64,000 nucleotides of DNA from Magnetococcales bacterium (GTDB taxonomy: Bacteria; Pseudomonadota; Magnetococcia; Magnetococcales; UBA8363), in contig JADGCV010000004.1 in NCBI GenBank assembly GCA_015228815.1, positions 40,008 to 104,007 of the forward strand, in the 5' to 3' direction. The translations under genes were made by a program, and so were the position numbers. The notes under the pieces are model-generated. The model was not told the DNA's origin and ran no database searches. It saw only the letters and a program-made list of their open reading frames with translations. Positions 61,870 to 64,000 of the stretch are shown here, in pieces (position 1 is the stretch's first letter; each line of letters starts with the position of its first letter).

Positions 61870-62979
61870 ATGGCTTTGCAATGTGGCATCGTTGGTCTTC
61901 CCAATGTTGGAAAATCGACCATTTTCAATGCACTGACCTCGGCAGGGGCCCAGATTGCCAACTACCCGTTCTGCACCATCGAGCCCAATGTCGGCGTCGT
62001 GACGGTCCAGGATCCCCGACTCGACACCCTGACCCGCATGGCCAAGCCCGCCAAGACCCTGCCCACCGTCATGGAATTTCTCGACATCGCAGGCCTCGTC
62101 AAGGGGGCCTCCAAGGGTGAAGGTCTGGGCAATCAGTTTCTCGGCAACATTCGTCAGGTAGACGCGGTGGCTCATGTGGTCCGTTGTTTTGAAAATATCG
62201 ATGTCACACATGTCCATGGCATCATCGATCCTGCCACCGACATCGAAATCATCGAAACCGAACTGATGCTGGCCGATCTTGCAAGTATCGAAAAACGCCG
62301 GGATGCGGTGATCCGCAAGGCCCGTTCCGGGGACAAGGAGGCCCGTTTTCTCACCTCGGTCTATGACAAAGTCATCCTCGGCCTCAACGAAGGCACGCCC
62401 ATCCGCGCCCTGGGCTTGGGCCCCGAGGAAAAGGTTGTCATGCGCGAACTTTTTCCCCTGACGGCCAAACCGGTTCTTTATGTTTGCAATGTCGATGAAT
62501 CCGCGGCAGCTGCGGCCCAGGTCCCGGGACAACACCCCTTGACCGACGCCGTTCGCGCGCGGGCTGCACGGGAAGGGGCAGAGGTCGTCGTGATTTGCGG
62601 TGCCATGGAAGCGGAGATTGCCCAACTGAAGGCCGAGGAAAAACAGGCCTTTCTCGATGATCTGGGGCTCAAGGAACCTGGACTCGACCGGTTGATCCGT
62701 CAGGCCTATCGCCTTCTGGGATTGATGACCTTCTTCACGGTCGGACCCAAGGAGGTACGGGCCTGGACCGTGGGGAACGGTGCCAAGGCGCCACAGGCCG
62801 CCGGCGTCATCCATACCGATTTTGAACGTGGATTCATTCGCGCCGAGGTCATCGCCTATGAGGATTTCGTCGCCTGTGGCGGGGAATCGGGGGCCAAGGA
62901 AAAAGGAAAGCTCCGAGTGGAAGGAAAGGATTATACCGTCCAGGATGGCGACATCATGCACTTTCGCTTCAATGTCTGA
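61870..62979 (+). CDS. ychF: Redox-sensitive ATPase YchF (OLA1 family)
   Basis: A 369-residue Obg-related ATPase. GLPNVGKSTIFNALT, the DIAGLVKGAS switch and the NVDE in place of NKxD (VCNVDE) explain ATP preference over GTP. The TGS domain follows (KEVRAWTVGNGAKAPQAAGVIHTDFERGFIRAEV). It binds ribosomes and regulates stress responses. It ends 42 bases before the convergent DUF499-type gene. Confidence 0.96.
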   Translation: MALQCGIVGLPNVGKSTIFNALTSAGAQIANYPFCTIEPNVGVVTVQDPRLDTLTRMAKPAKTLPTVMEFLDIAGLVKGASKGEGLGNQFLGNIRQVDAVAHVVRCFENIDVTHVHGIIDPATDIEIIETELMLADLASIEKRRDAVIRKARSGDKEARFLTSVYDKVILGLNEGTPIRALGLGPEEKVVMRELFPLTAKPVLYVCNVDESAAAAAQVPGQHPLTDAVRARAAREGAEVVVICGAMEAEIAQLKAEEKQAFLDDLGLKEPGLDRLIRQAYRLLGLMTFFTVGPKEVRAWTVGNGAKAPQAAGVIHTDFERGFIRAEVIAYEDFVACGGESGAKEKGKLRVEGKDYTVQDGDIMHFRFNV

Positions 62980-63021: not shown

Positions 63022-64000
63022 TCACTCTTCTTCGAACCCAAAAGAAGCGAAGCGCAGGGTGCGGCAATTTTCGGTTACATCGCGGATGGTCTTCTCGCTG
63101 GCCCCGCTCGGCAACTCGGCGCGGATTTCCATCGTCACTTCGACGTTGGCCCCGATATATCTCGACAGATGTTGGATCACCTCGTCGGCAATCCGACTGG
63201 CGTCCCGTCCAGCCCGGAGCGAATCGATCCGCACCGATCCGCGAAATCTTCGATACCCGAGGGCGGCTGGTGGTATGCCGGGGTCCGTTGCAAGCGTTCC
63301 CCCCTTCCCGGTCGATTGACGCCGTGCCACGGTCCGTTCGATGTCCGGGACCGTCGCCGAACCGTTTCCGGCTTTCGTCTCAGCCGCTGCGATATCCCGG
63401 CGCTGTTGTTCGGCTGCCACATCGGGCTTGACGATGATCAATCCCGCTTCGTCCTGAACAGTGGCTGAACCGCCACCCGCAAGGCCTGAATAGCGGCCTG
63501 CGGCATCCCTGGACTGTGCGCCGGCAAACGTGTCCGACTGCCAGGTCGGTCGCGTGATTCCTTCCCGGATGGCCGCGATCAGCACGTCCGAATCGCGAAG
63601 ACGGGGAAGGTACAGGTACGTCGCAAAATCCTCGACAAGCTGCTTCACCGGCACGTCATGACCTCGCCAGAGAGGTACCCGGTCCAATTCAAGGCGCAAC
63701 CGAACTCCACCCATCTGGACGAGGAGCATCTCCTCGCTCTTGAGCTTTTTGGCAGCGCGAAGCGCCAACGAATCCAATCCTTGCAGGCGTGTTTCCGTCC
63801 ATTCCGGCGATCCCCTCGGGTCTGGCTGGTTCGGGACAAGCAGCCACTGGTAGGTCTCGGGAATGCGCACTTTAACCGTTTCATCGCCGTTCTTGCGCTG
63901 CGTATCCGCTTGTTTGGCTTGGAACGGATCAAGATTGAGTTGTTCCCGCTCGTCCCATATGGACTTCCAGGACATGAATTGCCGGACGGCAACCTGAAGC
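63022..64000 (-). CDS. DUF499-type ATPase, C-terminal part (phage-defence associated), cut by the window edge
   Basis: About 325 C-terminal residues are visible; the N-terminus, with the AAA ATPase core, lies beyond 64000. LDSLALRAAKKLKSEEMLL, LRLELDRVPLWRGHDVPVKQLVEDFATYLYLPRL and VLIAAIREGITRPTW match the C-terminal region of DUF499 proteins, followed by a low-complexity linker and a beta domain (FRGSVRIDSLRAGRDASRIADEVIQHLS, IPSG). Such proteins lie beside DUF1156 methyltransferases and helicases in anti-phage loci, with a link to PglY. Identification is from memory of the family. Confidence 0.7.
   Translation of the reverse strand, partial: LQVAVRQFMSWKSIWDEREQLNLDPFQAKQADTQRKNGDETVKVRIPETYQWLLVPNQPDPRGSPEWTETRLQGLDSLALRAAKKLKSEEMLLVQMGGVRLRLELDRVPLWRGHDVPVKQLVEDFATYLYLPRLRDSDVLIAAIREGITRPTWQSDTFAGAQSRDAAGRYSGLAGGGSATVQDEAGLIIVKPDVAAEQQRRDIAAAETKAGNGSATVPDIERTVARRQSTGKGGTLATDPGIPPAALGYRRFRGSVRIDSLRAGRDASRIADEVIQHLSRYIGANVEVTMEIRAELPSGASEKTIRDVTENCRTLRFASFGFEEE

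Follow-up and report, generated by a model that had tools for sequence, protein, structure and literature searches.

Genes at the window edge and their surroundings

The window, a stretch of 64,000 nucleotides (G000:C4:40008-104007), ends inside a gene of the minus strand. An open frame of 325 residues (63022-63999), convergent with ychF, is cut short by the window edge. In the extended contig, this gene reaches C4:106337, outside the window (L002:2030-5338), and its frame is open throughout 1102 codons, counted from an ATG. The next gene upstream is also open throughout, over 928 codons. The features considered below are the following:

63022..64000, minus strand: C-terminal part of hmaC (residues 778-1102 of the full-length protein, plus the stop codon)
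63259..63402, minus strand: variable low-complexity linker of HmaC (visible residues about 200-247)
63025..63258, minus strand: conserved C-terminal block of HmaC (visible residues 248-325, from an alignment of 20 sequences)
61870..62979, plus strand: ychF, which flanks the inserted pair on the left in convergent orientation and is no part of the system
L002:5369-8155, minus strand, outside the window: hmaB, a DUF1156 adenine methyltransferase gene, next upstream of hmaC
L002:8212-9018, minus strand, outside the window: pssA, beyond hmaB

Pfam detects two domains in the full-length HmaC protein, HEPN_Swt1 (PF18731, residues 12-121, 9e-36) and DUF499 (PF04465, residues 290-793, 6.7e-30), and the PADLOC model PDLC00662 (HmaC) matches residues 164-1101 with 1108.7 bits. 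When the C-terminal piece of 325 residues is examined alone, the PADLOC HmaC match persists (3.8e-63) and no Pfam model is matched, as the DUF499 model of Pfam covers the upstream part of the protein. The NCBIfam equivalog model DUF499_antiphage gives a score of 209 for a cut-off of 1200, which places HmaC in the broad family and outside this narrower equivalog. Judged by its domain matches, the product of the gene is a Swt1-HEPN-fused DUF499 AAA+ ATPase, named HmaC in PADLOC. The original prediction, made from the visible residues, was that the C-terminal part of a DUF499-type ATPase lies at the window edge on the minus strand, convergent to ychF, and both the frame and the matches of the full protein bear it out. 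A further claim, that a low-complexity linker differs from the conserved flanks, also held: in the alignment of 20 sequences the linker is poorly conserved and gapped, with conserved flanks on either side, and in a structure model of the visible piece confidence is lowest at residues 213-248 (pLDDT below 50) and at the C-terminal end (residues 314-325). An RRM/ferredoxin-like domain has been described in DUF499 ATPases at the position of the conserved C-terminal block (PMC12839542); the model of the visible piece has a low confidence, with a pTM of 0.44. Among solved structures, searches by sequence identified no usable relative of HmaC or HmaB.

HmaB contains DUF1156 (PF06634, 1.2e-21) and is matched by PADLOC model PDLC00660 over residues 2-926 (959.5 bits). 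Beyond hmaB lie, in this order, pssA, psd, ilvC, ilvN, ilvB and gltA, whose names were read from their translations. The hmaB-hmaC pair is the tail of this same-strand housekeeping run, which meets ychF head-on, and 56 bp separate the pssA stop codon from the hmaB start. Judging solely by spacing and orientation, hmaB and hmaC are probably expressed with the ilvB-ilvN-ilvC-psd-pssA run, as its last genes. A search for a promoter or terminator of their own between pssA and hmaB gave one promoter-like match, with totals at chance level.

In a congener (G002) the site is empty, and intact ychF and pssA genes lie about 75 bp apart. The two genomes are homologous up to the ychF stop codon and again from the final pssA codons onwards; these breakpoints indicate that the insert is made of hmaB and hmaC, and nothing else. 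A foreign base composition of the pair was considered and rejected, as its GC content (0.58-0.61) is that of the flanks.

Loss of the helicase-nuclease and of the HEPN arginine

Antiphage activity of HmaA, the helicase-nuclease of Hma, was reportedly described by Liu et al. in 2024. Hma and Type-1 BREX-related (BR) systems are defined by a helicase, a methyltransferase and an ATPase (PMC8565338; PMC12839542). The methyltransferase and the ATPase are found here by profile, at full length and in the usual order of Hma as described in PADLOC (PMC8565338), but HmaA was not found at the locus in the extended contig. Elsewhere in the genome, which is 99% complete, the HmaA model gave nothing above 42 bits, while it gave 1250-2160 bits in seven further genomes from the order. 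The NOV_C/DUF3883 domain, present in HmaA of the closest relative (G035), had no match in the genome, and neither the locus nor the genome was found to encode an Snf2 helicase with a PD-(D/E)XK nuclease. That HmaA was overlooked elsewhere in the genome was rejected by the searches with the HmaA model, with NOV_C and with whole helicase proteins.

We surveyed 80 relatives on genome contigs. For 42 of these loci, the sequence upstream of the methyltransferase start could be followed over 4 kb or more, and HmaA lies there in every one, never more than 6.3 kb away from the methyltransferase; the five loci without HmaA show at most 2.5 kb of upstream sequence. Across 397 sampled genomes of the phylum, a strong HmaB match occurs in 11, nine of which also have a strong HmaA match. 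The remaining two are the genome under study and a congener (G006).

These data bear on the possibility that a complete defence island begins just beyond the window, helicase and additional defence genes included. Such an arrangement holds, as far as the helicase is concerned, in the 42 relatives that could be judged. It is hardly credible here, however, as housekeeping genes border the pair on both sides of an uninterrupted contig and HmaA is lacking in the genome; for the neighbourhood the idea is refuted, unless the junctions are misassembled. The original prediction of a defence island, to be checked by looking beyond position 64,000 for a DUF1156 methyltransferase, helicase, PLD nuclease or Pgl genes, was thus right about the methyltransferase, which is the next gene (Pfam, PADLOC), and wrong about the helicase partner, missing from locus and genome; past the methyltransferase, the extended contig shows housekeeping genes and no Pgl genes. 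A DISARM or Pgl island was also discarded, given that the locus holds no such genes.

A different explanation is that the pair is still active in defence and borrows a helicase-nuclease in trans. Candidates exist in the genome: the two best matches to the HmaA model are a ZorD-type helicase on contig C49, which joins an SNF2 helicase to an Mrr-type nuclease domain and thus has broadly the layout of HmaA, and a DpdE-type helicase on C51; an unassembled partner of a second DUF499-DUF1156 pair on C44 might also serve. Their HmaA-model scores are, however, generic (at most 42 bits in the genome search and 61 bits with whole proteins), their matches to other systems are much stronger (ZorD, 1419 bits; DpdE, 605 bits), and the HmaA of relatives is encoded close to the methyltransferase. 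We consider this explanation improbable.

The HEPN domain of HmaC is also altered. HEPN RNases carry an Rx4-6H motif whose arginine is needed in PrrC and RNase L, and the Swt1-type HEPN family fused to DUF499 is classed as active (PMC3710099). The usual motif in the family of HmaC is R-N-x-W-A-H, with arginine in 80 of 82 aligned proteins (two copies of one G035 contig are included in this number). In the protein under study the motif reads HNRWAH instead of RNxxxH: residue 92, a predicted catalytic position of the RNase, is encoded by CAT, a change supported by a single base of a draft assembly, and the motif histidine is kept. The other exception, L137, has WNKWNQ and has lost both the arginine and the histidine. 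One might still imagine abortive infection, with HmaB and HmaC sensing phage DNA and a HEPN domain that cleaves RNA with histidine in the place of arginine. Retention of the motif histidine would agree with this view, and some HEPN families without the canonical arginine may use other basic residues (PMC3710099). Yet the arginine is essential in the two RNases studied and kept in every relative but one, which makes abortive infection of this kind very unlikely.

Conserved motifs elsewhere are preserved. HmaC departs from its relatives at two of 275 near-invariant columns only (R92H and P166S); the Walker A motif GGGKTH, invariant in the alignment, is present, and Walker B is intact. HmaB keeps motifs I (DPFSGGGS) and IV (TDPPYYDN) and departs at one of 150 conserved columns, with a conservative change. 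The losses thus hit the two predicted effectors, HmaA and HEPN, and spare the modification side.

Constraint on the remaining genes and loss of HmaA in congeners

Selection on the ATPase was compared with that in the closest relative, G035. G035 belongs to the same order; its ATPase is 88-89% identical and its helicase is intact. When lineage-specific changes were counted using L094 as outgroup, the ATPase showed 67 amino-acid changes in the lineage under study and 20 in that of G035, an excess of about threefold. Nonsynonymous and synonymous changes were 69:88 and 25:90, respectively (odds ratio 2.8, p = 1.7e-4), and branch dN/dS values were about 0.14 and 0.05 for the ATPase core and 0.24 and 0.09 for HEPN. 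HmaB shows a mild shift similar to that of HmaC, over about 300 comparable residues. Hence, constraint on the ATPase is relaxed and purifying selection persists, a pattern compatible with reduced function and with early decay alike.

Decay would mean that loss of the helicase was followed by that of the HEPN site, and that two genes without present function are drifting towards pseudogenes. The excess of amino-acid changes and the higher nonsynonymous share agree with such a relic, as does a deletion of five residues in the HEPN domain relative to the four nearest relatives. On the other hand, both frames are open over their entire length, conserved motifs outside HEPN are intact, and branch dN/dS remains well below 1. 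On these data we regard a relic as a serious but unlikely alternative, and congeners provide arguments on both sides.

A second Hma lineage, without HEPN and near a miaA-like gene, is found in the same genus. In G001, an intact HmaB gene of 964 codons is followed, up to the contig end, by an HmaA gene of which only residues 1-33, 306-347 and 549-573 are left. In this HmaA pseudogene (L079, G001:C122:1-430), which comes directly after the intact HmaB, two large internal stretches are deleted, a case of helicase decay next to a methyltransferase that is preserved; a real pseudogene of this kind speaks for the relic. In G006, HmaB is intact at a contig end and no HmaA was found in a genome 97% complete. 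HmaC is intact in both genomes, on contigs separate from HmaB; in G006, intact HmaB and intact HmaC lie at contig ends (L080 and L081, on G006:C104 and C132), and the C-terminal remains of a second, frameshifted HmaB gene stand before HmaC. Contig ends blur the exact layout of both loci, and the G001 genome is only 75% complete.

Between G001 and G006, dN/dS of HmaB is 0.15 at dS 0.28, while the neighbouring miaA is looser (0.27 at 0.23). Thus, HmaB is constrained in two genomes without an intact HmaA, which argues against decay. HmaC has a dS of 1.04 between the same genomes and was therefore probably not inherited vertically in both. HmaA is still intact in G007, so three of the four Hma-bearing genomes observed in the genus keep HmaB and HmaC without intact HmaA. 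Loss in G001 and G006 may have been one shared event.

A candidate modification module and its relatives

Since HmaA is missing and the HEPN arginine is replaced, an intact defence function is unlikely, and the label of a complete Hma or BR defence system does not apply. By family the locus derives from HEPN-fused Hma/Type-1 BR, a kind already known, of which it represents a reduced form. Like other members (PMC12839542), it has an N-terminal Swt1-type HEPN, a DUF499 core and a DUF1156 methyltransferase; unlike them, it has no Snf2 helicase-nuclease, and histidine replaces the HEPN arginine. Ava_2192 (PMC3710099) represents the HEPN-fused DUF499 ATPase type to which HmaC corresponds. The view of the locus as phage defence was therefore correct as to family, given the HmaB and HmaC matches in PADLOC, and incorrect as to intact function: the locus is better described as a relic of a defence system or as a pair confined to modification.

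Between these two, we lean towards a HEPN-fused Hma reduced to HmaC and HmaB, that is, a modification-only pair deprived of both predicted effectors, and on the sequence evidence we hold this to be somewhat probable. With the helicase missing and the key HEPN residue lost, the pair would probably only mark DNA and not destroy phages. A working analogue that we propose is BrxX-BrxC of Type I BREX, which likewise combines a large adenine methyltransferase with an ORC/Cdc6-like AAA+ ATPase; there, BrxX binds BrxC, and methylation needs BrxB, BrxC, BrxX and BrxZ together (PMC11842806), a multi-gene requirement similar to that found for BREX methylation in other work (PMC9122589). DUF499 ATPases are described as homologues of BrxC, and BR methyltransferases as homologues of that of Type-3 BREX, both distant (PMC12839542). 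By analogy, the two large proteins HmaB and HmaC may form a complex that would methylate adenine site-specifically in the DNA of the cell itself. Deprived of HmaA and of HEPN activity, the pair would no longer restrict phage and would be left as an orphan DNA-modification module, which might serve epigenetic regulation or make the cell immune to incoming Hma elements that share its site. A difference from BREX is that PglZ/BrxZ, BrxB and BrxL are absent among the neighbours, as read from translations. BREX methylation requires BrxB and BrxZ as well, for which no counterpart is known here, and this counts against the modification-only reading.

Orphan DNA methyltransferases derive from restriction-modification systems in which the modification enzyme is kept and the restriction component is lost. 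The present locus differs from them in that it also keeps a large AAA+ partner, as expected if this partner is needed for methylation in the manner of BrxC. With two lineages of one genus in a similar state, a tentative generalization, to which we give appreciably less credit, is that Hma/BR systems repeatedly collapse to a helicase-free HmaB-HmaC module, in which HmaC might be obligatory for methylation like BrxC and which might survive by an epigenetic function or by protection against Hma elements of the same specificity.

Hma/BR systems are widespread, and the division of labour among their parts has hardly been tested. Natural copies without helicase and HEPN arginine point to HmaB and HmaC as the modification half and to HmaA and HEPN as the attack half, and these reduced copies are ready-made constructs with which the respective roles can be tested directly. 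A practical corollary is that a lone DUF499-DUF1156 pair annotated as phage defence can be mislabelled.

Additional loci were observed in the same genome and in relatives:(i). The second DUF499-DUF1156 pair mentioned above (L085:10783-15441, G000:C44) is distant, and the contig end cuts its methyltransferase. The SNF2 helicase of ZorD type (Zorya) with an Mrr nuclease (L086:2783-6559, G000:C49) and that of DpdE type (L087:8966-13327, G000:C51) point to other defence loci in the genome.

(ii). G035 carries a complete Hma operon (L078:634-14382, G035:C262), in which three additional genes, matching PADLOC PDC-S06, PDC-M38A and PDC-M38B, separate helicase and methyltransferase. At 47%, the identity of the G035 methyltransferase to that of the genome under study is far below the 88% of the ATPase. 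In 50-residue blocks, identity is 22-58% over the first 700 methyltransferase residues and about 90% over most of the ATPase, which suggests that G035 exchanged its methyltransferase.

(iii). In L094, from a Neomarinimicrobiota relative, a frame of 613 amino acids with the P-loop GPNNAGKT lies between HmaB and HmaC (L094:885-2726). Read by eye, it resembles an OLD-like AAA ATPase, and may mark a variable cargo position inside the operon.

(iv). L125 encodes a HEPN-DUF499 ATPase with no methyltransferase or helicase detected within the 10 kb shown on either side, and is possibly a solitary ATPase.
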